Under the pieces are notes generated by a model. That model was not told where the DNA came from. It was given only the letters and a program-made list of their open reading frames with translations, and did no database searches. The position numbers and the translations under genes were made by a program. Source: Denitromonas ohlonensis (GTDB taxonomy: Bacteria > Pseudomonadota > Gammaproteobacteria > Burkholderiales > Rhodocyclaceae). Taken from it: a stretch of DNA of 64,000 nt. Where the stretch lies: NCBI RefSeq assembly GCF_007625205.1, contig NZ_VMNI01000014.1:1-64000 (forward strand), written 5' to 3'. Shown here piece after piece: positions 5,447 to 58,943 of this stretch; the stretch's first letter is position 1, and each line of letters opens with the position of its first letter.

Positions 5447-6791
5447 GTTCAGCTCGGCAATCCAGCGCGGGGTTGCCGATGTTCTCTCGCGGGCAGGCGT
5501 CCGCGCCGATCAGACCTTACAGCTCGCACTCAGCGGCGGCATGGATTCCATGGTGCTGCTCAGTGTGCTGGCCGGCTTGCGCGAGCGCTTCGGCTTTGTG
5601 CTGCGTGCGCATCATGTTCACCATGGTTTGAGCCCCAACGCCGACGAGTGGGCGGCGTTTTGCGCGGCCCGTTGTGCGTCGCTTGAGGTGCCGCTCAGCG
5701 TGTCGCGCGTGAGCGTACAACCCGCCGCCGGCGAAGGCTGGGAGGCGGCGGCGCGGCGCGAGCGCCAAGGCGCCCTGGCGAGCGAGGCGGCTGACTGGCG
5801 CGTGAGCGCGCATCATCTGGATGATCAGGCCGAAACGGTGATGTTCCGCCTGCTGCGCGGCGCCGGTGTGCATGGCGCGGCGGCGATGCGGGCGATTGAA
5901 GTGCTGCCGTCGGGCGGCGGCCGTTTGCGGCCCTTGCTGGCGTTTTCGCGTGGTCAGATTCTCGCTTTTGCGCAGGCCGAGTCATTGGCCTGGGTCGAGG
6001 ACGAGAGCAATACCGACCCGCGCTTCTCGCGCAATTTTCTGCGTCATTCGGTCATGCCCGCGATGGGCGAGCGCTGGCCGTCCGCGGCGACCACGCTGGC
6101 GCGCGCGGCGGCCAATTTTGACGAGGCCGCCGGCTTGCTCGACGAGCTGGCCGTGCAGGATGCCCAAGCCTGCGGACTGCCGTGGTCGCGCGATGTGATG
6201 CGCGGTATGTCCGCGCCGCGCCTCGCGAATCTGCTGCGCTGGCGGATGCGAGCCTTGAGTTTGCCGGTGCCCGATCAGGCACGATTACATGAAGCGATTC
6301 GTCAGGTGCAGTCGTGCGCGAACGACCGTCCGCTGACCTTGCCGCTCGGCGGCGCGGTGCTGCATGCCTATCGCGAGGTGGTGTGGGTGTCGCCGACCTA
6401 TCCGGACCTGCCCGAAGACGGCGTGTTGTGGCCGGGTGAGGCCGTGGCTTGGGGCGAAGGCGTGGTCGAGGCGGTGGCAGTCGTTGGTGCGGGTGTGTCG
6501 CAGGCACGACTGGCGCAGGCGACGCGCTGCGAAGTCATGGCGCGCTGGCCGGGTTGCCGGGTGGCCTTGGTGGGGCGGCCGCGCAAGGATGTGCGCAGCC
6601 TCAGTCAGGGCGCCGGCCTGGCGCCGGTCGACCGCGACCGGGTGCCGATCTTGCGTGTGGATGGCCAGGTGGCCTGGATTGCCGGGCTGGGTGTGGCCGG
6701 CACATTTGCCTGCCCTGTGGGCGAGCCGGGCTGGCAGTTTGTGTGGCGTCGGCCCGAGGCTTATTCGGCGGACGGCGTCGCGCTGTTGTAA
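5418..6791 (+). CDS. tilS: tRNA(Ile)-lysidine synthase
   Basis: TilS converts C34 of tRNA-Ile(CAU) to lysidine, so that the tRNA reads AUA and is charged with isoleucine. The 457-residue protein has the N-type ATP pyrophosphatase motif SGGMDS near residue 40, then [14 protein letters not shown], and a C-terminal TilS substrate-binding domain from about residue 350 (around [10 protein letters not shown]). The start lies inside accA (29-base overlap) and leaves about 35 residues before the P-loop, which fits the family. Its end overlaps the convergent response-regulator gene by 31 bases. Confidence 0.95.
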
Positions 6792-7402
6792 AGCCCGGCC
6801 AAGGTGAGTTGCTGGGCCAGTTCGACGGCTGAGCGCACACCCATTTTCTCGAAGACCCGCGCCCGATGGACCTCGACGGTGCGCATCGAGATGTTCAATT
6901 CGTCGGCAATCACCTTGTTGAATTTGCCGGCCAGAATCAGCCCCATGACTTCGCGTTCGCGCCCGGTGAGCTGCTCCAGGCGGGCGGCGACGTCGACCCG
7001 CGCCGAGCGCCGCGCCTGATTGCGGGCGTCTTCATCGAGTGCGGATTGCACGATGTCGACCAGCGCGTTGTCATCAAAAGGTTTTTCAATGAAATCGAAG
7101 GCGCCGCGCTTGAGTGCGCCGACGGCCATTGGCACGTCGCCGTGGCCGGTGATGAAGATGATCGGCAAGGTGCTGCCACGCTGGCGCAAGGCGGTGGAGC
7201 AGTCGAGCCCGCTCATGCCATGCATGCGGATGTCCATGACGATACAGCCGCGCCAGTCTTCCTGGTAGGCGGCGAGAAAGTCTTCGGCAGACGCCCAGGT
7301 GGCGCAGGGCACGTTGCGGGTGCGAAACAACCACGACAGCGCGTCGCGGATGGCTTCGTCGTCGTCGACGATGTGAGTCAGGGGTGTGGTGTCTGTCGTC
7401 AT
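6761..7402 (-). CDS. FixJ-family two-component response regulator
   Basis: A 213-residue regulator with an N-terminal receiver domain (acidic pocket DDDE at 13-16, phospho-acceptor Asp57 in CIVMDIRM, conserved Lys in IEKPF near residue 106) and a C-terminal LuxR-type helix-turn-helix (LTGREREVMGLILAGKFNK to the RTVEVHRARVFEKMGV recognition region). It is the partner of the upstream histidine kinase, whose stop codon overlaps its ATG by 4 bases. DctR/FixJ-type regulators commonly control dicarboxylate uptake. A TRAP binding-protein gene divergent from this pair makes that the likely target, but this is inferred from position. The gene runs 31 bases into the tail of the convergent tilS. Confidence 0.92.
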   Translation of the reverse strand: MTTDTTPLTHIVDDDEAIRDALSWLFRTRNVPCATWASAEDFLAAYQEDWRGCIVMDIRMHGMSGLDCSTALRQRGSTLPIIFITGHGDVPMAVGALKRGAFDFIEKPFDDNALVDIVQSALDEDARNQARRSARVDVAARLEQLTGREREVMGLILAGKFNKVIADELNISMRTVEVHRARVFEKMGVRSAVELAQQLTLAGLYNSATPSAE

Positions 7403-9390
7403 GAGGCCAGCGGCAGCGAGAAGGTGAAGATCGTACCACCTTCCGGATTGGGTTCGAACCCGAGCCGGCCGCCGTGCAACTCGGCGATGGAGCGGCAGAT
7501 GTTGAGGCCCATGCCCATGCCCTCGTCCTTGGTGGTGAAGAAGGGGTCAAAGATGCGTCGCGCCGCGTCTTCATCAATGCCGCGCCCCCAGTCGGTGACC
7601 CGGAAAATGAGCGTATCGCCGTCGGCCAGGGTTTCGATGCGGATGGTGCGCCGGGCGCCGGGGGCGTCGCGCATGGCATCCATGCCGTTGCGGATCAGAT
7701 TGACCGCGACTTGCTCGAGCATGACCGGGTCGGCATTGACCGGCAGGGGGCGGTCGGCAAGGTGGGTTTGCAACTCGACACCGCGCTTGCGCACATCGGG
7801 GTCGATCAGGCCGATGGCTTCGGAGAGGACCGCGTTCAGGTCGATGGTCTCGCGTTTGGGTTCGCTGCGGCGGACAAAGTCATGCACGCGCCGGATGATG
7901 TCGCCGGCACGACGCGCCTGCCGGGTGATCTTGCTGATGATGTCGTGCAGTTCGTCGGTGTCGGCGCGGCCCTCGTCGAGCCGGTTGAGGCAGCCCGCGC
8001 TGTAGCTGGAGATCGCGGCCAGCGGCTGGTTGAGCTCATGCGCCAGGGTGGAGGCCATTTCGCCCATGGTGATCAGGCGCGAGGTGGCGTGCAGGCGTTC
8101 TTCTTGCTGGCGGGCCAGTGCTTCGGCGGCGGTCTGTGCGGTGATGTCGAGAAAGGAGCCCATCCAGCCGGTCTGCTCGCCCGTGGTGTCGATCAGCGGC
8201 GCTTCGAAGATGAGCATGTCGATGGCATGGCCGTCTTTGTGCCGAAAGTGGATTTCCACCCCTTCACGCGGCGCGCTGCCGGCCAGAATGCCGTCGTGAA
8301 TGGCCTGGGTGCGTTCGAGGTGCTCCGGGTCCCAGTAGGGCATGGGCGGCATGGCGCCGAGCAGTTCTTTTTCGGAATAGCCGACCATCCGGCAGAAGGC
8401 GGGGTTCACATAGGTGATCTTGCCGGTGGTGTCCCGGGCGCGCAGCCCGGTGAGCAGGGAGTCTTCCATGGCCTTGCGGAAGGCCATTTCGCTGCGCAGG
8501 GCTTGTTCGGCGGCCTGGCGCCCGAGGGTGTGCTGACGCAGCTGCCACAGACTCCAGACGATGACGCCGCCGAGAAAGATCATGGCGCTGATCAACAGCA
8601 CCGGCACCCAGCGCGTGGGCGCTTTGTAGGCGGTGACCTTGAGCGTGAGGCCGTAGCCCGGCGGATCGAAGGGAATCGTGTATTGCTGGTGGCTGGCCTG
8701 CGCCGCGACCTTGGACTTTGCGGCGATCTCCTTGCCGTCCGGGTCGTGCACGCTGACCCGGTAGCGCTCGGAGAACCACCATGGCAGCTCGCGCACGACG
8801 AGCTGCTGAAGCGAATAGACGCCGACGACGGTGCCAGTGTGGCGGCTGCCCACGAAGATGGGCACATGCACATTGAAGCGCCAGTGACCGCCAATGACCG
8901 GGTAGGTGGGGCCGTAGATGGGGCGGCCGACGGCGCGGGCGAGGCGGTTGGTTTCGTTTGACGGGATGGCGCCGCGCGCTTCGCCGACCAGCACATCGTC
9001 CGAGGCGAAGGGGCGCGCGGCGATGGTCTTGTCGTTTGCGTCCAGCCACAGAATCTGGACGAGTCCGCTGTCTGGCTTCAGCAGTTGCTCGAGGCTGGCC
9101 TCGGTGCGCGGTGACATGCTCTGGGTGGCGAGCAGTTCGCTGCCGATCTGCGCCAGCTGCTCTTCGTTCCGGTCGAGCCGGAAGCGCAAGTCCTGCTCCA
9201 TCCACAGCACGTCATTGATCAGCACCTCGTGCTGTTTTTCGTCGTCGAAATGGCGGGTCATCCATACCAGGGCGATGATGGCCAGAAGCATCAGGCCGAT
9301 CGTCAGCGACGGCAGTCGCCAATACCAGGCGGGCGTGGAGGGGAGGGGACGGGTGCTGGGAGAGGGCATCGGCGGCAGGCTTGCGGTCAT
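7399..9390 (-). CDS. Membrane sensor histidine kinase (DctS/FixL-like) with PAS domain
   Basis: A 663-residue kinase. A membrane segment near residues 28-44 and a second near 265-288 (VPVLLISAMIFLGGVIVW) bracket a periplasmic sensor region of about 220 residues. A PAS domain follows (about 300-415, around GKITYVNPAFCRMVGYSEKE), then a HisKA helix with phospho-acceptor His451 in LAHELNQPLA, and a HATPase domain with N-box RNGMDAM and G boxes DWGRGID and GMGMGLN. The HELNQPLA motif is typical of DctS/FixL/TodS-like kinases. The ATG at 9390 is preferred over a TTG two codons upstream. It is divergent from the TRAP binding-protein gene, so a dicarboxylate or other carboxylate ligand is a reasonable guess, not shown. 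Confidence 0.92.
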   Translation of the reverse strand: MTASLPPMPSPSTRPLPSTPAWYWRLPSLTIGLMLLAIIALVWMTRHFDDEKQHEVLINDVLWMEQDLRFRLDRNEEQLAQIGSELLATQSMSPRTEASLEQLLKPDSGLVQILWLDANDKTIAARPFASDDVLVGEARGAIPSNETNRLARAVGRPIYGPTYPVIGGHWRFNVHVPIFVGSRHTGTVVGVYSLQQLVVRELPWWFSERYRVSVHDPDGKEIAAKSKVAAQASHQQYTIPFDPPGYGLTLKVTAYKAPTRWVPVLLISAMIFLGGVIVWSLWQLRQHTLGRQAAEQALRSEMAFRKAMEDSLLTGLRARDTTGKITYVNPAFCRMVGYSEKELLGAMPPMPYWDPEHLERTQAIHDGILAGSAPREGVEIHFRHKDGHAIDMLIFEAPLIDTTGEQTGWMGSFLDITAQTAAEALARQQEERLHATSRLITMGEMASTLAHELNQPLAAISSYSAGCLNRLDEGRADTDELHDIISKITRQARRAGDIIRRVHDFVRRSEPKRETIDLNAVLSEAIGLIDPDVRKRGVELQTHLADRPLPVNADPVMLEQVAVNLIRNGMDAMRDAPGARRTIRIETLADGDTLIFRVTDWGRGIDEDAARRIFDPFFTTKDEGMGMGLNICRSIAELHGGRLGFEPNPEGGTIFTFSLPLAS

Positions 9391-49504: not shown

Positions 49505-49529
49505 GTCCGTGGCAGTTCCCGGTAAAGAG

Positions 49530-49553
49530 GCGGCCTTCGGGCCGCTTTTTTTT
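49530..49553 (+). terminator. Terminator after the binding-lipoprotein gene
   Basis: Stem GCGGCC/GGCCGC with a UUCG tetraloop, then eight T residues. It overlaps the false upstream extension of the tamA frame. Confidence 0.92.
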
Positions 49554-49595
49554 GCGTCGGTCCTTTGCAATTGGGCGACGTTCTACAATGGCGCC

Positions 49596-51332
49596 ATGAC
49601 TATGATCTTTCGACCCGTGTGTCGCTGGGTGCTTGGGCTTTGTTGGTGTTTTTCCGCCGTCAGCTACGCTGCCGCACCCATTGCACTAGATGCGCCGGAG
49701 GCCGTCCGCGATCTATTGACCGCGCATCTGAGCACCTTGCGTGAGGACGCCTTGCCTAATGCAGCCGATGACCGGGAGCGGCAGGCGCTGATTAGACGAA
49801 CCCGTAAAGAAGTTGAAGCCTTGCTGGCCACCGAGGGGTATTTCACCCCGACCGTATCGCGGGTTGGGGACAGTCGCTCACCAATGGAGGTCAAGGTGAT
49901 ACTTGGGCCGCGCGCCGAAATTTCGGTGGTGGACATCGCGTTTTCGGGTGCGCTTGCTGACCCGGCCCATGCCGATCGACGAGATCAACTCAAGCAATCC
50001 TGGCAACTGCCGGTTGGCGCGTCGTTTCGGCAAGCGGATTGGGACGGCGCTAAAGGGCATTTGCTGGATGCGGTCGCGTATCGGGATTTTGCGGCCGCCC
50101 GTTTGGTGAAGACCCGTGCCGAGGTGGATCCGGAGACCGCCCGGGTGCGCCTGGCGGTGACGATCGATTCTGGCCCGGCGTTTACGATGGGGTCGCTCAA
50201 TATCGAAGGGCTTCAAGACTATCCGTCCGACTTGGTGTCCCGTTACAACCTGATTGAGCCGGGCGACCCCTATGATCTGGATCGCCTGCTTGAGTTCCAG
50301 CGCGTGCTGCAGTCAACCGCTTATTTTTCGTCGGTTGTTGTCAATGTCGCCACGCGCGATGTGTCGCCCGAGCAAGTGCCGATTCAGGTCAGTGTGGTAG
50401 AGGCGCCGCCCAAGCGGGTCGGGCTGGGCGTTGGTTTCAGTAGTAACAACGGCTATCGCACCGAAGCGTCTTACCGTAATGCGAACCTCCTCGGCCGGGG
50501 GTGGATTCTGACGACAGGCTTGCGTTTGCAGCAGCGCGAACAGCTGGCCTATGCCGATGTGTTTCTCCCGCCCGAGCGCGGCGGGCGTCAGGATAGCTTC
50601 GGCGCCTTGACCGAACGCAGCGATACCCAGGGCCTGAAAATCACCAATAGTGCGATCGGTATTGCGCGCAAACACCAGCGCGATGACATCGAAACGCATC
50701 TCGCGCTCAAGCTCCAGCGTGAAACCTATGCGCCCGAAGGCGTTGAGGAGTCGAACCGCAAGGCGCTGTCGCTTAACTGGACATGGACCTGGCGCAAGGT
50801 CGATAACCTGCTCGATCCGCGTGAGGGCTTTGTCCTGAGCGGGCAGATCGGCGGCGGCGCCAAGGCGGCCTTGTCCGACCAGAACTTTCTCCGCTTGGCC
50901 GGTCGGCTTGTGCGCTATCAACCGGTGGGTGAGCGCGATGTGTTTATTTTGCGAGCCGATGGTGGCATCACACTCGCGCCGAGCCGCGATGACATCCCGC
51001 AGGACTTCCTGTTCCGTACCGGCGGCGCCCAGAGCGTGCGTGGCTACGCCTATCAAAGCCTGGGCGTGGCGGAGGGGAGCGCCACGGTGGGTGGGCGCTA
51101 TATGGCCGCGGTGAGCGCCGAATACGTGCATTGGCTCGACAACACCTGGGGTATCGCAGGGTTTGTTGACGCAGGCAATGCCACCGACGAGCGCGAGACC
51201 TTTCGCTTCAAGGCGGGCTACGGTCTTGGTGCCCGCTGGCGCAGCCCGGCCGGGCCGCTGGCGGTTGATCTTGCCTATGGTCATGACGATCGGACGCTGC
51301 GGCTGCATTTCGCGATTGCCGTGGCGTTCTAG
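49596..51332 (+). CDS. tamA: TamA/BamA-family outer membrane protein
   Basis: A 578-residue Omp85 protein: signal peptide (about residues 1-25 up to AVSYAAA), three POTRA domains (about 30-265, with FTMGSLNIEGLQDYPSD in the last) and a C-terminal 16-strand barrel with the lid-lock motif VRGY (GGAQSVRGYAYQSLG) and a C-terminal aromatic residue (AVAF). Length and three POTRA-like units fit TamA, which helps assemble autotransporters and moves phospholipids with TamB. No tamB gene follows; the next gene is a porin. The ATG at 49596 follows the terminator of the previous gene and gives the signal peptide. Confidence 0.85.
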   Translation: MTMIFRPVCRWVLGLCWCFSAVSYAAAPIALDAPEAVRDLLTAHLSTLREDALPNAADDRERQALIRRTRKEVEALLATEGYFTPTVSRVGDSRSPMEVKVILGPRAEISVVDIAFSGALADPAHADRRDQLKQSWQLPVGASFRQADWDGAKGHLLDAVAYRDFAAARLVKTRAEVDPETARVRLAVTIDSGPAFTMGSLNIEGLQDYPSDLVSRYNLIEPGDPYDLDRLLEFQRVLQSTAYFSSVVVNVATRDVSPEQVPIQVSVVEAPPKRVGLGVGFSSNNGYRTEASYRNANLLGRGWILTTGLRLQQREQLAYADVFLPPERGGRQDSFGALTERSDTQGLKITNSAIGIARKHQRDDIETHLALKLQRETYAPEGVEESNRKALSLNWTWTWRKVDNLLDPREGFVLSGQIGGGAKAALSDQNFLRLAGRLVRYQPVGERDVFILRADGGITLAPSRDDIPQDFLFRTGGAQSVRGYAYQSLGVAEGSATVGGRYMAAVSAEYVHWLDNTWGIAGFVDAGNATDERETFRFKAGYGLGARWRSPAGPLAVDLAYGHDDRTLRLHFAIAVAF

Positions 51333-51629: not shown

Positions 51630-52652
51630 ATGCAGAAGAAACTGATCGCCCTGGCCATCGCCGGCATGATCGCCGCTCCGGCCTTCGCTCAGTCCAACGT
51701 GACCGTTTACGGCATCATCGACACCTTCGTTGGTGTTGGTAAAGCTGGTGACGCCAAGTTCTCGGGCGTTGCCAACGGAGTGCTGAACGGCCCGCGTATC
51801 GGCTTCAAGGGTGAAGAAGACCTGGGTAACGGCCTGAAGGCCAAGTTCGTGCTGGAGCAGGGCTTCAACTCCGACGACGCTTCCCCGGCTTCCTCCAAAG
51901 AATTCCACCGTCAAGCTTGGGTTGGTCTGGAAGGCGGCTTCGGTTTCATCGGTCTGGGTCGTCAGTACTCGCCGGGTTACTATTCTTTCCGCAATGACGC
52001 CGTCGCCGCTGGCGCCCTGGATCCTGCCGCCATCCTGACGGGCGGTGGTCTGCAGATCGACGCTGGTTCGGACGCTCGCTGGGATAACTCGGTCAACTAC
52101 CAGTCGAAGAAATTCGGTGGTTTCAGCGGCCAGCTGATCTATAGCTTTGGTTCGACCGAAGCTGACGACAAAGCAAAGAACCCGAACCGCAACACCGATG
52201 ACAAAGTTGGTCTGGGCCTGAACTACGCCAATGGTCCGCTGAACGTTGATTACATCTACATCAACGCTGGCGACTCGACCCTGGGCGACGACCACAAAGA
52301 GCACTACATTGGTGCTGGCTACGACTTCGGCGGCTTCAAGCTGGTCGGTTCCTACCAGACTGCTAGCGTCGATGCGAATGACAGCGACGTGAAGGTGTAT
52401 CAGATCGGCGGTATCGTTCCGGTCGGCATGGGCAACATCCACGTTGCTTACGGTGCCCGTAACGAAGATGCGCAGGATTCGGACAGCCGTTCGTTCACCG
52501 TGGCCTACACCCACAACCTGTCGAAGCGCACCATCGCTTACGTCGGTGTGAACCGCACCACGAACGACGACAACGTTGGTCTGGGCGCGCTGGCCAAGCA
52601 AGACGGCGAGAGCTCCACCGCTCTGGGTCTGGGCATCCGCCACGCTTTCTAA
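51630..52652 (+). CDS. Gram-negative general porin (16-strand trimeric type)
   Basis: A 340-residue porin with a Sec signal (MQKKLIALAIAGMIAAPAFA, cut before QSNVTVYG). It starts with the betaproteobacterial porin signature VTVYGIIDTFVGV, contains a NGPRIGFKGEEDLGNGLKA strand pair, and ends with RHAF, the terminal aromatic residue that the BAM complex recognises. Codon use is strongly biased (ggt/ctg/gac), indicating high expression. It is preceded by an aggag site and followed by a strong terminator, so it is a single-gene unit. Ion preference is not readable. Confidence 0.95.
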   Translation: MQKKLIALAIAGMIAAPAFAQSNVTVYGIIDTFVGVGKAGDAKFSGVANGVLNGPRIGFKGEEDLGNGLKAKFVLEQGFNSDDASPASSKEFHRQAWVGLEGGFGFIGLGRQYSPGYYSFRNDAVAAGALDPAAILTGGGLQIDAGSDARWDNSVNYQSKKFGGFSGQLIYSFGSTEADDKAKNPNRNTDDKVGLGLNYANGPLNVDYIYINAGDSTLGDDHKEHYIGAGYDFGGFKLVGSYQTASVDANDSDVKVYQIGGIVPVGMGNIHVAYGARNEDAQDSDSRSFTVAYTHNLSKRTIAYVGVNRTTNDDNVGLGALAKQDGESSTALGLGIRHAF

Positions 52653-52743: not shown

Positions 52744-53514
52744 TCAGTTCAGTTTCTTCAAATACTCTTTGGTGAATAGCTTGTCCGGCAGCGGACGGGG
52801 GTTCATCGCGCTGTAGCTCATGACGGACACGTTGCCTGCCTTGAGCGCGTCGGTCATGACGAGGCGGGTGGGGCGAATGGCGCCGGCCATCTCTTTGTAG
52901 TCCATGTACTCGCAGGTTTTCAGCAGCCGACCCGAAATCGCGTAGAACGCGGCCTTGATTGGGCGTGTTGTGGCAGCGTCAATCCAGTACTCAACCTTGG
53001 CGTAGGTGACGCCGTCATCGACGGCGGTCAGTTCAAGCACATGCGCCGCTTTCCCTTCCATGGCTTCTTCACGCAGGTATTTCGCGGTGTAGTCACCGGT
53101 GAAGTTCGCGCGGGCGAGATCGCCGTTGGCAACCTGGCCGGTAAGGCGTTGGGCCAGCGACAAGCGGACGGGCTGAGAGACGGAGGGCATGAATATCCAC
53201 AGGTCCCGGTGCTTCATAAGCAGGATCTGGCCGCGCTCGCTGGCGGGCTCCATGGTCAGCACAACGGTGTCTTCACGCCCCTTTGATAGCACACGGTAGC
53301 GATGATGGTCGGCGTCTTCACCGTCGTTTTGGCGGCTTTCGATGTCAATGTCGACCTGGAAGCTTTCCTGCGGGAAGCGGATCGCATCGGTGCTGGAAAG
53401 CAGGGCGTTGGCGTCGGGCGCGTCCGCTGCGCTCGTCAATCCGCTGAGGGGCATGAGCGCCGATAAAACGGCGATGCGCAGGACCGTACGACGAAGTCGA
53501 AATGGCTGTGTCAT
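52744..53514 (-). CDS. LolA-like periplasmic protein (outer-membrane lipoprotein-sorting type)
   Basis: A 256-residue secreted protein with signal peptide (about residues 1-29, RIAVLSALMPLSGLTSAADA) and the beta-rich LolA-like fold commonly annotated as outer membrane lipoprotein-sorting protein: repeated DLWIFMPSVSQPVRLSLAQR, GKAAHVLELTAVDDG and EYWIDAATTRPIKAAFY segments. It is distinct from the housekeeping LolA and lacks a lipobox. Genes of this family usually sit beside a LolD/MacB-like ATPase and an FtsX-like permease and handle hydrophobic cargo. Here it is divergent from an ATPase gene, 44 bases apart, with no permease next to either. Confidence 0.82.
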   Translation of the reverse strand: MTQPFRLRRTVLRIAVLSALMPLSGLTSAADAPDANALLSSTDAIRFPQESFQVDIDIESRQNDGEDADHHRYRVLSKGREDTVVLTMEPASERGQILLMKHRDLWIFMPSVSQPVRLSLAQRLTGQVANGDLARANFTGDYTAKYLREEAMEGKAAHVLELTAVDDGVTYAKVEYWIDAATTRPIKAAFYAISGRLLKTCEYMDYKEMAGAIRPTRLVMTDALKAGNVSVMSYSAMNPRPLPDKLFTKEYLKKLN

Positions 53515-53558
53515 GAGTGCTATCCTTGTGGCAGTGTCACTTCTATTACGGCAACGAA

Positions 53559-54308
53559 ATGGCGATAGTTCAGGTCGAAAATGTCTCCAAGCGTTATCGC
53601 TTGGGCGATCAAACCGTGACGGCGCTTCGCGACGTCACCTTGTCCATTGAGCCGGGCGTTTTTCTGGCCATCGCCGGGCCGTCTGGAAGCGGTAAGTCGA
53701 CAGTACTGAATATTATCGGTTGCATCGACACCCCTTCGAGTGGTCGTGTGCTGATCAATGGCCAGGATGTGTCCGGACAGAGTCCCGATGATCTGGCGGA
53801 TTTGCGTGCGCGAACGATCGGTTTCATCTTCCAGACTTTCAATTTGATGCCCGTGCTGTCGGCGGAAGAGAACGTCGAGTACCCGCTGCTGCAGTTTCCT
53901 GAACTTTCCAAGGCGGAGCGTCAGGAGCGGGTCAAGCACTACCTGTCCATGGTGGGCTTGCGCAAGTATGCCTCGCACCGGCCGAATCAACTGTCGGGTG
54001 GTCAGCGGCAGCGGGTAGCGATTGCGCGAGCGTTGGCAACCCATTCGAAAATCGTGCTGGCCGATGAGCCCACCGCCAACCTCGATCGGAAGACCGGCGA
54101 GAGCATTCTGAAGCTGATGAAGCAGATCAACAGGGAGTCTGGAACCACGTTCGTGTTTTCGACCCATGATCGACGCGTGATGAATATGGCGGACCGTTTG
54201 GTGCGCATTGAAGATGGTGAAATCAAGGCGCTGGGGATGCGACAGTCTGATGGGTGGATGTTCGTCCAGGATCGTCGGGCGCAAGACGAAGAAGATCCGG
54301 AAATCTAG
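53559..54308 (+). CDS. LolD/MacB-type ABC transporter ATP-binding protein
   Basis: A 249-residue ABC ATPase: Walker A GPSGSGKST (about residues 37-45), Q-loop FIFQTFNLMPVLSAEENV, signature LSGGQRQRVAIARAL, Walker B IVLADEPTANLD and H-loop STHDRRVM. The LMPVLSAEENVEYPL stretch is typical of the MacB/LolD subfamily, whose partners are FtsX-like permeases that push substrates from the inner membrane outward instead of importing them. No permease is encoded in this cluster. The outer-membrane barrel gene starts 10 bases downstream, so the two are probably co-transcribed. The ATG at 53559 has only a weak ribosome binding site. Confidence 0.9.
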   Translation: MAIVQVENVSKRYRLGDQTVTALRDVTLSIEPGVFLAIAGPSGSGKSTVLNIIGCIDTPSSGRVLINGQDVSGQSPDDLADLRARTIGFIFQTFNLMPVLSAEENVEYPLLQFPELSKAERQERVKHYLSMVGLRKYASHRPNQLSGGQRQRVAIARALATHSKIVLADEPTANLDRKTGESILKLMKQINRESGTTFVFSTHDRRVMNMADRLVRIEDGEIKALGMRQSDGWMFVQDRRAQDEEDPEI

Positions 54309-54318
54309 GGAGAGTTTG

Positions 54319-55617
54319 ATGAATCGATGGCGTTTGGGTGTTGGCCTTGGCCTGGTAGCGATGACTGGCTGTGCGCTTGCTGCGGGCGATCTGGATGATT
54401 TGCTCGATGTGGCCAGGCCTGCCGACAGCGGTGGTGGTTTGCATGGGTTTGCCGAGTTTTCCGCTGCGCGGGCGTATAACTCGCCGTCGCACTGGTCCAA
54501 GCTGCGTGCACGCTTGAATCTCGAGAGCAGTGGGCGGCTGAGCGAGACGGTGAAGTGGAAGCTCTCGGGGCGATTTGACGCGGATGCCGCGCCGGACATA
54601 GAGTCGGATGTGTATCCCTCTGCGGTTCGCCGTGATCTGCGCAGTGAAGCCACGATTCGCGAAGCGTATCTCGATATCTCCGCGGGCAAGTGGGACTACC
54701 GGCTGGGGCGGCAGCATGTCGTCTGGGGGGAGATGGTCGGTCTGTTCTTTGCTGATGTGGTGTCTGCGCGAGATACCCGTGAGTTCTTTCTCCCTGAGTT
54801 TGATCAGATGCGGATCCCGCAATGGGCCGCACGTGCCGAGTACTTTGGCGACGGATGGCATGGTGAGCTGCTTTGGATACCGGTCGCCACGGTCGACAAT
54901 ATCGGAAAGCCGGGTGGCGATTTCTATCCGTTTGCTGCCGATGGTGCGCAGTTTGAGGGTGAGGATCGCCCCGATCAACGACTGGGCAACATGAATTGGG
55001 GCGCGCGTTTGTCGGCCTTGCTCAACGGGTGGGATGTTTCCGGGTTTTTTTATCGAAGCACCGATACCGCGCCGACCTTTTATCGCACGTCGCTCGCGCC
55101 TTTGACGTTCGAGGCACGTCATGACCGAATCAACCAGTTTGGAGCGACGTTCTCCAAGGATATGGGAGGTTTTGTGCTCAAGGGTGAGGCTGTTCACACC
55201 GCTGGGCGTCAGTTCAATACGACGGATCTTGCGGCGCCGAATGGATTGGTGGCGTCAGATACGCTGGATTACGTGGTCGGCGTGGATGTACCCGTCGGGC
55301 AGCGGTGGCGTGTGAACACGCAGTATTACGCGCGGCGCTACTTGAATCATCGCGAGGGTCTGGTGTGGGACAAGAGCGAGGACGGTGCGACGCTGCTGGT
55401 GAATCGCCAGTTTGGTGACGATCTGGAGGCGGAGGTGCTACTCGTGTCGAGTCTGAATGGCGGTGGCTATATGCTGCGGCCGAAAGTCGTATGGCAGATG
55501 GACGCCAACTGGCGTGGAACAGCGGGTCTCGACGTGTTTGGTGGCCCGGAGCAGGGCGTGTTCGGCCGGTTCGACCGCAGTGATCGCGCGTATGTTGAGG
55601 TGCGGCGCGCGTTCTGA
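54319..55617 (+). CDS. DUF1302-like outer-membrane beta-barrel protein
   Basis: A 432-residue protein with a signal peptide (about residues 1-20) and alternating amphipathic strands ending in VRRAF, the C-terminal aromatic signature of outer-membrane barrels. The segment YRLGRQHVVWGEMVGLFFAD followed by VVSARDTREFFL strongly recalls DUF1302 proteins (RxGxQxVxWG... D.xxxxDxREF). Such barrels accompany LolD-like ATPases and LolA-like proteins in several proteobacterial clusters of unknown cargo. A strong site (agggag) precedes the ATG, 10 bases after the ATPase gene. The longer frame from 54208 overlaps the ATPase and is rejected. Confidence 0.8.
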   Translation: MNRWRLGVGLGLVAMTGCALAAGDLDDLLDVARPADSGGGLHGFAEFSAARAYNSPSHWSKLRARLNLESSGRLSETVKWKLSGRFDADAAPDIESDVYPSAVRRDLRSEATIREAYLDISAGKWDYRLGRQHVVWGEMVGLFFADVVSARDTREFFLPEFDQMRIPQWAARAEYFGDGWHGELLWIPVATVDNIGKPGGDFYPFAADGAQFEGEDRPDQRLGNMNWGARLSALLNGWDVSGFFYRSTDTAPTFYRTSLAPLTFEARHDRINQFGATFSKDMGGFVLKGEAVHTAGRQFNTTDLAAPNGLVASDTLDYVVGVDVPVGQRWRVNTQYYARRYLNHREGLVWDKSEDGATLLVNRQFGDDLEAEVLLVSSLNGGGYMLRPKVVWQMDANWRGTAGLDVFGGPEQGVFGRFDRSDRAYVEVRRAF

Positions 55618-55659: not shown

Positions 55660-56469
55660 TTACAGGGCAATCAGCGAAGGGTCGGCCTGCAGGCGCTTGA
55701 GTAGGCCGCGCTGTTCGTTGTCATTGAAGAAGTAGGAGTAAAGGCTTCGGGCACCAGAATCTGGGCGCCCCGCTTGGCGATCGACCTGTTCGTCGACGTA
55801 GCTTAGGGGGAGGTGCAGGAGTACTGCCGGCGCATTGACCCGGGGGCAGATGCGTTCTTCTCCCGCGATCCGGAAACCGAGCATGCGTCGGTAGAAGGCC
55901 ACATGGCGAGGATTGACCTCAATGAACAGGTCAGTTTTGTTGTGGATCAGCCGGCCGAAGATGTAGGCCAGGTGAAAGATCGAGGCGAGAACCTCTTTTG
56001 AGTTGAAGGCCGGGTCGATGGCGAGTCGAGTCAGTTCGCATACTTTGGCGCCGGCCTTTCGTGCGGCGCCGATTTCTTTCGAGTACAACTCGTCCGCCAG
56101 CAGGCCTTCGTCTGAATCCAGCTTCAGGGTCAGGGTGCCGAACATGGTGGTTCCGCGTGAGGCAATCAGCGTCAGCTGGTTGGGCTGGTCGTCGATGCGC
56201 GACGGGGCGTGTGTGAGCAGGCCGCGCCATGCATACATCCGTTGAATCAGCATGCTGACATTGCTTCGCTGCCCGTCGGCGCCATTGCCCAAGCGGATCT
56301 GAAAATCGCTGCGCGAAAGTACGAATTCACGGCTGTCCCGATCATCCGCGGGAGGGATGCCAAGCGAGTGGAGCGCGCCCGAATCGTTTGTCACGTTTCT
56401 TCGTGGAATAGCGTGATAAGCTGCTTGCAACCTCGGGTTGTTGGATTGACTTGCTTCGAATGTACTCAC
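55660..56469 (-). CDS. XrtA/PEP-CTERM-associated acyltransferase, FeeM-like
   Basis: A 269-residue protein whose central part (about residues 65-230) is a FeeM-type N-acyltransferase of the GNAT superfamily: SNVSMLIQRMYAWRGL, LTLIASRGTTMFGTLTLKLD, KVCELTRLAIDP and FIEVNPRHVAFYRRMLGFRI. Members beside exosortase loci form the PEP-CTERM/exosortase system-associated acyltransferase family (TIGR03694 type), with N-acyl amino acids as suspected products. The GTG at 56469 has a good gaggg site; the alternative ATG at 56514 has none. It is divergent from the export operon and may be co-regulated with it. The first 60 residues are polar and of low conservation. Confidence 0.82.
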   Translation of the reverse strand: MSTFEASQSNNPRLQAAYHAIPRRNVTNDSGALHSLGIPPADDRDSREFVLSRSDFQIRLGNGADGQRSNVSMLIQRMYAWRGLLTHAPSRIDDQPNQLTLIASRGTTMFGTLTLKLDSDEGLLADELYSKEIGAARKAGAKVCELTRLAIDPAFNSKEVLASIFHLAYIFGRLIHNKTDLFIEVNPRHVAFYRRMLGFRIAGEERICPRVNAPAVLLHLPLSYVDEQVDRQAGRPDSGARSLYSYFFNDNEQRGLLKRLQADPSLIAL

Positions 56470-56715
56470 TTGGTGACCCTCTGATGACCGATCAGTTGCA
56501 GCGGAATTTGTCATGCCAGGTCGCAGTGCGCTCAGCCAAATAATGCCAATGGACTGAGCTGCGCGGCGTGTATTGCATCGTACTTTAGTCATTCTCGCGG
56601 GGGAAGGCTGTAAGCGTTTGTGTAATTGTTCCTTTTGGACCGTGCCCGGCGTCGCTAGGATTCCGATGGAATGTCGGAAGCCACTGCCGACACAATGACA
56701 TTGGAGGGGTTGGAA

Positions 56716-57336
56716 ATGAAGCTCATGCGAACCATGCTGGGGCTCTTTAGCGTTGCTCTCGCTTCGCTCGTCGTGCTGTCGGGGTGCGCCAGCAGCAGTT
56801 TTCCGCCAGCGCCCGCGGTGGCCGCTGATTCGGAGTACAGCTATGTGATCGGACCGGGTGATACGGTCAATATCGTTGTGTGGCGCAATCCGGAGTTGTC
56901 GATGTCTGTGCCGGTGCGTCCGGACGGAAAGATCACTACACCGCTGGTTGAAGACCTGCAGGCGATGGGAAAGGATGCCAGCACGCTTGGGCGTGACATC
57001 GAGAAGGCGCTGGAAAAGTACATTCGCGAGCCGGTCGTTACGGTGATCGTGACCAGTTTTGTCGGCCCGTATAGTGAGCAGATTCGCGTGGTTGGCGAAG
57101 CAGCCAAGCCGATGATTCTGCCGTATCGCCAAAAGATGACTGCGCTCGATGTGATGATTGCAGTGGGTGGCATGACCGAGTTTGCTGATGGCAACAAAGC
57201 GTCGATCCTGCGCACCGGCGAGGGAAACAAGCAGTACAGCGTTCGCTTGTCGGATTTGCTCAAGCGCGGCGATGTGTCAGCTAACGTTGAGATGCGTCCC
57301 GGCGATGTTCTGATCATTCCGCAAAGCTGGTTCTGA
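56716..57336 (+). CDS. XrtA-type polysaccharide export lipoprotein (Wza family)
   Basis: A 206-residue outer-membrane export protein with lipobox VLSGC (near residue 21), a polysaccharide export domain (YVIGPGDTVNIVVWRNPEL and DGKITTPLVEDLQAMGK) and a SLBB domain (IRVVGEAAKPMILPYRQ). It is the short Wza-like form found in exosortase A loci (TIGR03027 type) and lacks the C-terminal helix that crosses the outer membrane in E. coli Wza. The ATG at 56716 follows ggagggg. It is the first gene of the operon; a small hairpin TGTCGG/CCGACA (56672-56692) lies in its leader. Confidence 0.9.
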   Translation: MKLMRTMLGLFSVALASLVVLSGCASSSFPPAPAVAADSEYSYVIGPGDTVNIVVWRNPELSMSVPVRPDGKITTPLVEDLQAMGKDASTLGRDIEKALEKYIREPVVTVIVTSFVGPYSEQIRVVGEAAKPMILPYRQKMTALDVMIAVGGMTEFADGNKASILRTGEGNKQYSVRLSDLLKRGDVSANVEMRPGDVLIIPQSWF

Positions 57337-57401: not shown

Positions 57402-58943
57402 ATGGAAGACGTCCTCCGACAACTCGTCGCGTATCTGCGCGGCATGTGGCTATATCGCTGGTGGGGCTTGGCTGCGGCCTGGCTGGTCGGCGCCATTGCA
57501 GCGGGTGCCATCTATATGTTGCCCGACCGTTACGAATCATCGGCGCGGATTTTTGTTGATACGCAGTCGGTGTTGAAGCCACTGATGTCAGGTTTGGCGG
57601 TTCAGCCGAACGTGGATCAACAGATCACCATTCTTTCGCGGACGTTGATCAGCCGCCCGAACATCGAGAAGCTGATCCGTATGGCTGACCTTGACCTGAC
57701 GGTCAAGACCAACAAGCAGCGCGAAGAATTGATTGTTGAGTTGAACAAAACGCTGCAGATCAAGGGTACGGGGCGGGACAATCTTTTTACTCTCTCGTAT
57801 GAAGACACGCAGCCGGATCGCGCCAAGCGTGTCGTGCAATCTCTGGTGTCGATTTTTGTGGAGTCGGGCCTTGGCGATAAGCGCAAGGATACGGATTCTG
57901 CTCGTCGATTCATCGAGGAACAGATCAAGACCTATGAGCAGCGGCTGGATGAGGCAGAAAACCGGCTCAAGGACTTCAGAATCAAAAACATGCACCTGAT
58001 GGGTAGCGGCAAGGATTACCTCACCCAGGTCGGGGAGGTTGCGGCTCAACTGGCGGCAGCACGCCTCGCTTTGCGCGAAGCGGAAAATTCTCGAGACGCG
58101 CTGCAGCGTCAGCTCACCGGTGAAGAGCCCGTGCTGTTGCCGGAGAATACCGTCGAGCGCAAGGTGTCGATTCCCGAGATTGACGGTCGTGTTGATGCGT
58201 TGGAGAAAAATCTGGATGGTTTGCTTCAGCGTTACACCGAGGCGCATCCGGATGTGGTTGGGACTCGCCGTATCATCGAGCAACTGAAAGAACAGAAAAA
58301 GGTCGAAGTGGCTGCTCGCCGCAGCGAAGGCGGCGGCTATGGCGACGTGAACTCCAATCCGGTCTATCAGCAAATGAAGCTCGCGCTGGCCGACGCTGCC
58401 GCCAATGTCGCGTCGCTCAGAGCGCGGGTGGCCGAGTTTGAAGGCCGCCAGGTTCGCTTGCAGGAGTCAGCCAAGCTGCTGCCGCAGGTCGAGGCGGAGC
58501 TGGCCCAGTTGAACCGCGATTACGAGATCAACAAGAAGAACTACGAAACGCTGGTGAGCCGCCGTGAATCGGCCAACATGTCAGTGGAGATGGAGTCTTC
58601 GTCGGGCATGGCCGAGTTCCGCCTGATCGATCCACCGAGCGTGCCGCTCAAGCCGTCAGCGCCCAATCGCATCCTGCTGATGCCACTGGGCGGGGGCGCT
58701 GCCTTGCTGTTTGGTCTGGCATTTACGTTCATTCTCAGCCAGATGCGGCCGACGTTCCTGGATGGGCGGGATTTGCGCGAAATCTCTGGCTTGCCCTTGC
58801 TCGGCACGGTCAGTGCGACCGCTGATCCGGTGCGTAAGCGCCGGCGGCAGCGTCTCAATCTGGCCTTCTTTGGCGGTGTTGGAGGTTATGTTGGCGCATT
58901 TGGCGTGCTGACTGTGGCCATCGCCATGCTGAAACTTTCGTGA
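57402..58943 (+). CDS. XrtA-type polysaccharide chain-length determinant protein
   Basis: A 513-residue Wzz/BY-kinase-activator protein with two membrane spans (about residues 18-37 and 428-447, plus a third hydrophobic segment near 490-510) and a long periplasmic coiled-coil region with many Gln/Glu/Arg residues between. The Wzz motif with proline-rich end is seen at RLIDPPSVPLKPSAPNRILL. It corresponds to the TIGR03007-type protein of PEP-CTERM exopolysaccharide loci and should set polymer length and activate the kinase encoded next. It lacks a fused kinase domain. Confidence 0.9.
   Translation: MEDVLRQLVAYLRGMWLYRWWGLAAAWLVGAIAAGAIYMLPDRYESSARIFVDTQSVLKPLMSGLAVQPNVDQQITILSRTLISRPNIEKLIRMADLDLTVKTNKQREELIVELNKTLQIKGTGRDNLFTLSYEDTQPDRAKRVVQSLVSIFVESGLGDKRKDTDSARRFIEEQIKTYEQRLDEAENRLKDFRIKNMHLMGSGKDYLTQVGEVAAQLAAARLALREAENSRDALQRQLTGEEPVLLPENTVERKVSIPEIDGRVDALEKNLDGLLQRYTEAHPDVVGTRRIIEQLKEQKKVEVAARRSEGGGYGDVNSNPVYQQMKLALADAAANVASLRARVAEFEGRQVRLQESAKLLPQVEAELAQLNRDYEINKKNYETLVSRRESANMSVEMESSSGMAEFRLIDPPSVPLKPSAPNRILLMPLGGGAALLFGLAFTFILSQMRPTFLDGRDLREISGLPLLGTVSATADPVRKRRRQRLNLAFFGGVGGYVGAFGVLTVAIAMLKLS

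Follow-up and report, generated by a model that had tools for sequence, protein, structure and literature searches.

The stretch analysed here, 64,000 nucleotides of Denitromonas ohlonensis DNA (contig NZ_VMNI01000014.1, labelled C21 in our analysis; hereafter the window), contains a three-gene set encoding a LolA-like periplasmic carrier, an ABC ATPase and a DUF1302-like outer-membrane barrel (Table 1). A sequence-only reading had placed these three genes here, and their positions were borne out. Judged by eye, the carrier has a signal peptide and lacks a lipobox. Its ortholog of solved structure is 3buu (NE2245; profile E 2.7e-118), which was deposited under the label of an uncharacterised LolA superfamily protein, and its nearest named record, at 99% identity, comes from Denitromonas halophila SFB-3. 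The open frame of the ATPase begins at a GTG at 53517, and the likelier start is the ATG at 53559; with this start taken, the carrier and ATPase genes diverge across the 44 bases that the sequence-only reading had given. Among 25 related loci whose alignments cover both starts, this gap was 42–46 bases in 19 and 56–1164 bases in the other 6. The match of the barrel to PF06980 is local, covering profile positions 133–436 of 541. No permease was found at the window locus.

Table 1. Features of the window locus, of the window's contig beyond it (C21) and of contig C25. Positions without a contig label are those of the window.
Feature	Position	Strand	Evidence and remarks
LolA-like periplasmic carrier	52744..53514	-	256 aa; PF17131 164.6 bits, E 2.6e-48, cut-off 30
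Divergent intergenic region, carrier/ATPase	53515..53558	.	44 bases
ABC ATPase, LolD/MacB/DevA kind	53559..54308	+	249 aa; ABC_tran E 1.2e-34
DUF1302-like outer-membrane barrel	54319..55617	+	432 aa; PF06980 47.2 bits, cut-off 23.2
Putative FeeM-family N-acyl amino acid synthase, convergent	about 55660..56253	-	PF21926 182.4 bits, E 6.7e-54, cut-off 27
XrtA/PEP-CTERM exopolysaccharide export protein	56671..57336	+	TIGR03027 239.5 bits, cut-off 180
Wzc-like chain-length protein, XrtA/exopolysaccharide cluster	57402..58943	+	name from reading the sequence only
Exosortase A	C21:66894-67601		~11 kb past the barrel; TIGR03109 333.4 bits, cut-off 208
permA-permB tandem pair	C25:31300-33761		permA 414 aa, permB 403 aa; each MacB_PCD + FtsX

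From 296 confirmed carrier relatives, the best 80 were taken for a comparison of gene arrangement, with flanks of up to 10 kb each. The ATPase gene was divergent from the carrier gene within 1.5 kb in 80/80 loci, and in 75/80 the barrel gene came next after the ATPase in the same orientation; the set, whose conservation in relatives the sequence-only reading had proposed to check, is thus conserved. Of the remaining five loci, three (L165, L189, L191) come from stretches that end near the ATPase, L209 has its barrel elsewhere in the locus, and no barrel was seen in the L159 locus. The genes might be neighbours by chance, with no joint function, a reading for which the divergent orientation of carrier and ATPase speaks. 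This is highly improbable, because the arrangement was kept at 80/80 and 75/80 over many genera.

The ATPase had been labelled LolD/MacB, a name that did not hold at the level of curated models. It scored 225.2 bits against the LolD equivalog TIGR02211 (cut-off 307.75) and 221 bits against the full-length MacB model NF007826 (cut-off 966). The genome's own LolD lies on contig C26, where it scored 333.2 bits with TIGR02211, above the cut-off, and adjoins a LolC/E permease of 486.0 bits; this, together with the low score of the window ATPase, rules out that the latter is the genome's LolD. The sequence-only reading had staked its case against the ATPase being the genome's sole LolD or MacB in a set without conservation, and both the separate LolD and the conserved set came out in its favour. 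Nor is there a fused chain of the MacAB type, the 249-residue ATPase being separate from permA (414 residues) and permB (403 residues), two permeases described below. No MacA adaptor or TolC partner was recognised among the gene clusters common to at least 7 of 31 loci, in which unlabelled clusters were read by eye and which, apart from known genes, were mostly antisense artefacts.

As to the missing permease, a genome search for an orphan FtsX/LolC-like protein had been suggested along with the sequence-only reading. The source genome contains 14 FtsX domains at 10 places. With blastp on the neighbouring open frames, an ATPase homolog was found near 8 of these places, and none was found near a tandem permease pair on contig C25, permA-permB, or near a YbbP-like protein on contig C28. 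Neither member of the C25 pair reached the lolCE model TIGR02212 (cut-off 362.45 bits), permA scoring 98.6 and permB 112.0 bits. The statement that the set has no permease holds for the window locus only, since orthologs of the C25 pair lie near the set in many relatives. The permease is relocated, not vanished; its loss from the genome is ruled out by the C25 pair and the co-occurrence of its orthologs.

Co-occurrence was computed over an even sample of 369 genomes of the class. Carrier orthologs were present in 14/369 and permA orthologs in the same 14, with neither in 355 (Fisher test, 1e-25; 2e-18 at one count per genus, 10/272, with relatedness uncorrected). Carrier and permA lay on the same contig, no more than 6 kb apart, in 13 of the 14, the sole exception being the window's genome. 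The cut-offs were set only once the gaps in the scores had been seen: at least 338.8 bits for the carrier, with the next score at 157.8, and at least 529 bits for permA, under which fell permB and a single paralog (345 bits, in a genome with the set); the best permA score outside the 14 genomes was 315 bits. A second sample held 61 genomes, namely the source genome and relatives in its genus, family and order. Here carrier orthologs were found in 21 genomes, permA in 22, both in 21 and neither in 39, with cut-offs again set after the gaps had been seen (carrier at least 269 bits, next 144; permA at least 335 bits). A permA fragment in G041 (226 bits, at a contig end) was included because it adjoins the carrier and ATPase genes, and a paralog (G022:C6) scores higher than this fragment, at 270 bits. 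Carrier paralogs of 27–39% identity belong to a different operon type and were not counted as orthologs. Carrier and permeases were within ~10 kb of each other in 8/21 genomes and apart in 13/21. Several of the 80 loci come from genomes that are also among the 61, and the two sets of counts are therefore not independent.

Both permA and permB were found within 10 kb of the carrier in 40 of the 80 loci; of the 40 loci without them, 17 are stretches shortened by contig ends. The architecture of the window, with wza within 5 kb, occurs in 29/80 loci, and the permeases in none of these 29. All 40 permease-bearing loci are without wza within 5 kb, and 11/80 loci have neither. In L109 the cluster is complete, with permA, permB, carrier, ATPase, barrel, nitroreductase, ThiF and two FeeM genes. 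Locus L209 has ATPase, permA and permB in that order on one strand, and in L105 the ATPase and permA genes are adjacent on one strand, followed by the contig end.

The ATPase tree holds 33 rows, 2 of 35 having been left out for stop codons, and has some long branches. The ATPases of genomes with co-located and with split halves, the window ATPase included, fall on one side of a branch supported 100/98. The next rows are ATPases of operons that encode an ATPase, a permease and a LolA-like protein; the joint branch is supported 95/94, and the exact sister is unsure. The LolD of the source genome and that of E. coli group elsewhere (98/83). This placement, apart from LolD and within the clade of the set's own ATPases, and the exact co-occurrence and co-location with permA/permB in other genomes speak against the ATPase partnering another permease, either the C26 LolC/E or the orphan YbbP-like protein of C28, although for the latter, a double FtsX protein, no ATPase homolog was found within its 15 kb. 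We regard such a partnership as very unlikely, with the C28 protein judged on its own 15 kb and on families only. The pairing of the two halves is strongly supported, and it is highly probable that the ATPase and permA/permB are one transporter.

The YbbP-like gene at C28 encodes 827 residues with two FtsX domains (G000:C28:84000-99000, L028, positions 6742-9222, minus strand); it adjoins an M20 peptidase gene and a YoaA helicase gene, and a search of the open frames in these 15 kb found no ATPase homolog. Another genome, G033, has a second pair resembling permA/permB on a short contig (G033:C139:5969-9586, L140), with no carrier, ATPase or barrel match in the examined stretch.

The permease structure comparison covers permA, for which an ortholog from a Thiobacillus metagenome-assembled genome (locus L177) was modelled with a mean predicted local distance difference test (pLDDT) score of 85. 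The best match was a LolCDE chain, 9rld_C (Z 29.4, root-mean-square deviation 4.5, 373 residues aligned), which gives the predicted permA a LolC/LolE-like fold; the match to MacB reached Z 21.1.

Both halves have acyltransferase genes beside them. The gene convergent with the barrel encodes a putative N-acyl amino acid synthase by profile and by its predicted catalytic Glu: the protein aligns to FeeM (2g0b) with E 5e-10, the block of the active-site Glu included. The aligned FeeM Glu is chain position 96 of 2g0b by count, and is given as Glu95 in the available part of PMC4897644. FeeM-type homologs were found in 53/80 loci, 45 of them at 40% identity or more. At C25 an acyltransferase gene matching TIGR03694 (255.6 bits, cut-off 111.95) comes after the permease pair. 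Divergent from the pair are genes for a ThiF-family protein, a nitroreductase-like protein and a PEP-CTERM protein, the last of which, at 80.6 bits, barely exceeds the cut-off of 80 for floc_PepA. In the source genome and 11 others, the pair is flanked by proB-like and acyl-CoA-synthetase-like genes (names by eye), except that in G006 the proB-like gene was not seen, the contig beginning at a pepA-like gene. At this place the 12 genomes have a TIGR03694-type acyltransferase in 12/12, adjacent or, in G008, ~2.5 kb off, ThiF in 10/12 and nitroreductase in 9/12. No close ATPase homolog was found in these 12 stretches, the only matches being two of 27–28% identity ~8 kb off in G006. TIGR03694 matches were present in 11/14 genomes with the set and in 58/369 overall (Fisher test, 2e-7). 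The presence of a FeeM or TIGR03694 acyltransferase beside each half makes its product a concrete cargo candidate. Two further FeeM-family matches lie elsewhere in the genome, at C31:191521-192000 and C33:51315-51677.

The gene at 56671..57336 opens an XrtA cluster that extends beyond the end of the window, where the contig carries exosortase A and other genes of the XrtA system. Homologs of the Wzc-like gene were found in 38/80 related loci. Directly upstream of the set are an Omp85/TamA-like gene (49509-51332) and a porin gene (51630-52652), with homologs in only 8/80 and 10/80 related loci, respectively.

We favour, with moderate confidence, the reading that the two halves make up a LolCDE-like exporter, split between two loci and spanning the envelope, whose cargo is an N-acyl amino acid or a compound derived from one and which is tied to PEP-CTERM/exosortase surface biology. 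The computations establish what the genes are, that they are conserved, that the halves co-occur and are co-located, and that permA has a LolC/E-like predicted fold; we infer the physical assembly, the cargo, the direction and the role of the barrel. In this model the ATPase would assemble with permA/permB in the inner membrane, and the complex would draw the amphipathic cargo from that membrane. The cargo would be made by FeeM-type acyltransferases with the ThiF-like and nitroreductase-like enzymes, which, speculatively, might modify the acyl amino acid. Within the periplasm the cargo would be ferried by the LolA-like protein, and the 18-strand barrel would insert it into the outer membrane or let it through; at the surface, the product would be used for the PEP-CTERM/exosortase matrix. 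Our estimates rest mainly on the co-occurrence in the class and on the conserved gene arrangement. That the transporter exports rather than imports is probable. For a cargo of the N-acyl amino acid lipid type, which is suggested by gene neighbourhood, we put the chances at about even. The sequence-only reading is partly supported as a whole: the conserved set fits its trans-envelope path for a hydrophobic cargo, while the lipid or lipoprotein nature of that cargo is still conjectural.

Several results weigh against this exporter. One genome (G007, 86% complete) has permA/permB without a carrier ortholog, and a G033 locus has carrier, barrel and permeases with no ATPase there by tblastn. A TIGR03694 match is lacking in 3 of the 14 class genomes with the set, and a FeeM-type homolog in 27/80 examined stretches, some of them cut by contig ends and 9 of them with permeases. 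ThiF is near in 24/80 loci (all 24 at 40% identity or more) and nitroreductase in 19/80 (16 at that level, 3 weak). In two genomes with split halves, G015 and G027, the pair lies at another place, without acyltransferase or ThiF in the examined stretch. For the permA model, the Gram-positive exporter 5xu1 (Z 27.0) falls within the range of LolC/LolE. The Hook loop of LolC is absent by alignment, there being a six-column gap in 3/3 permA and 3/3 permB sequences. In E. coli the Hook comprises LolC residues 168–178 and recruits LolA, as given in the available part of PMC10865981; with no Hook in either permease, a LolA-like hand-over would need a different docking mode. Finally, the barrel is as similar to general porins and to uptake channels of the Occ/OprD kind as it is to AlgE, which would allow import. 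The FeeM and TIGR03694 gaps, G033, G007, the absent Hook and the uptake-like barrel leave our estimates unchanged.

Exosortase matches were present in 14/14 genomes with the set and in 113/369 overall (Fisher test, 4e-8). This association, the LolC/LolE fold as the nearest to that of permA, the N-acyltransferase genes beside both halves, and the PEP-CTERM gene at C25 and XrtA cluster at the window would also fit a second, Hook-less Lol pathway. The exosortase would there join PEP-CTERM proteins to a lipid of the N-acyl amino acid type, made by FeeM, ThiF and nitroreductase, and the LolCDE-like complex, carrier and barrel would deliver these lipidated proteins to the outer membrane and the outside. 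Archaeosortase joins proteins to lipid, which counts in favour of such a pathway. However, the Hook of LolC is missing, and an exosortase match also occurs in 99/355 genomes without the set, so that PEP-CTERM sorting does not need the set. We consider the second Lol pathway unlikely.

An AlphaFold2 model of the barrel (35 sequences) has 18 long strands by count and a mean pLDDT of 80.2. Foldseek ranked OmpF-type porins first, at a TM score of about 0.5. In structural alignment, MOMP, Occ/OprD channels and AlgE all fell in the same range, at Z of about 20 to 22.6, a comparison in which a family missing from the listing counts as no evidence against that family. The similar scores describe a porin-like barrel, with the direction left undecided by the fold. 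Residues ~139–164 (window 54733-54810, around WGEMVG...ADVVS) are strongly conserved and of low confidence in the model; this segment may fold into the pore. In a system running inward or serving outer-membrane lipid balance, a carboxylate or lipid would enter through the barrel and be taken to the inner membrane by the LolA-like protein. The scores of Occ/OprD channels (Z about 21–22) and the first rank of OmpF-type porins fit such uptake, but the exporter AlgE scores alike (Z 20–21), the permease belongs with the LolC/E and MacB kinds, and the set is associated with biosynthetic genes. LolC/E- and MacB-type permeases extract or export. We consider this inward or lipid-balance reading unlikely.

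Two halves, each beside an acyltransferase gene, suggest how fatty amino-acid molecules may reach the cell surface. Defined transport genes are now tied to the synthases by co-occurrence and neighbourhood, which makes the question testable. In a methanotroph, according to the available part of PMC11072679, knockout of such a synthase impaired polysaccharide band formation and growth. The set also appears to be a case of ABC transporter genes standing far apart, the ATPase in one place and the permeases in another, and single-locus annotation misses such cases. No prior description of the transport set was found in the open-access papers searched; it is not described in the available parts of PMC4897644, PMC11072679, PMC11631085 and PMC4886054, and the terms acyltransferase, ABC transporter, nitroreductase, autoinducer and ThiF are absent from the available part of Haft 2006 (PMC1569441).

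Five known systems were compared with the set. Like LolCDE-LolA-LolB of E. coli, it has an ABC ATPase, two MacB_PCD/FtsX permeases, a LolA-superfamily carrier and the predicted fold of permA; unlike that system, it scores below the curated cut-offs, stands beside a separate LolD and LolC/E in the same genome, has no Hook, adds a barrel and is encoded at two loci. The operons of relatives that encode an ATPase, a permease and a LolA-like protein (16 loci, L110-L125) have the nearest ATPases in the tree and carriers of 27–39% identity, but they have a single FtsX permease and their three genes are on one strand. No homolog of the window barrel was found in 16/16 of these loci (tblastn, E 1e-5).

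Four full-length DUF1302 proteins are encoded elsewhere in the genome (C19:49039, C19:76114, C26:23756, C28:195811; 360–489 bits). A partial PF17131-like match lies no more than about 1.1 kb from each of them, in one case scoring below the cut-off. These sets share with the window the closeness of a barrel and a PF17131-like match, and differ in that their DUF1302 proteins are full-length and on other contigs, whereas the window barrel is a distant member of the family (43.7 bits in the genome comparison). Sets of this kind have resistance-nodulation-division (RND) partners.

The synthases of Craig, Cherry and Brady 2011, as described in the available parts of citing papers, are likewise FeeM-type acyltransferases beside exosortase genes; the candidate transport system is what is added here. 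The nearest functional analogue in the literature examined is the aryl polyene cluster (E. coli ApeL/ApeM/ApeN), in which, according to the available part of PMC8253772, a LolA-like chaperone is encoded together with lipid-making genes and with a transporter dedicated to them, as in the set. The aryl polyene clusters use an RND transporter and a LolB-like protein, in contrast to the ABC transporter and barrel of the set described here.

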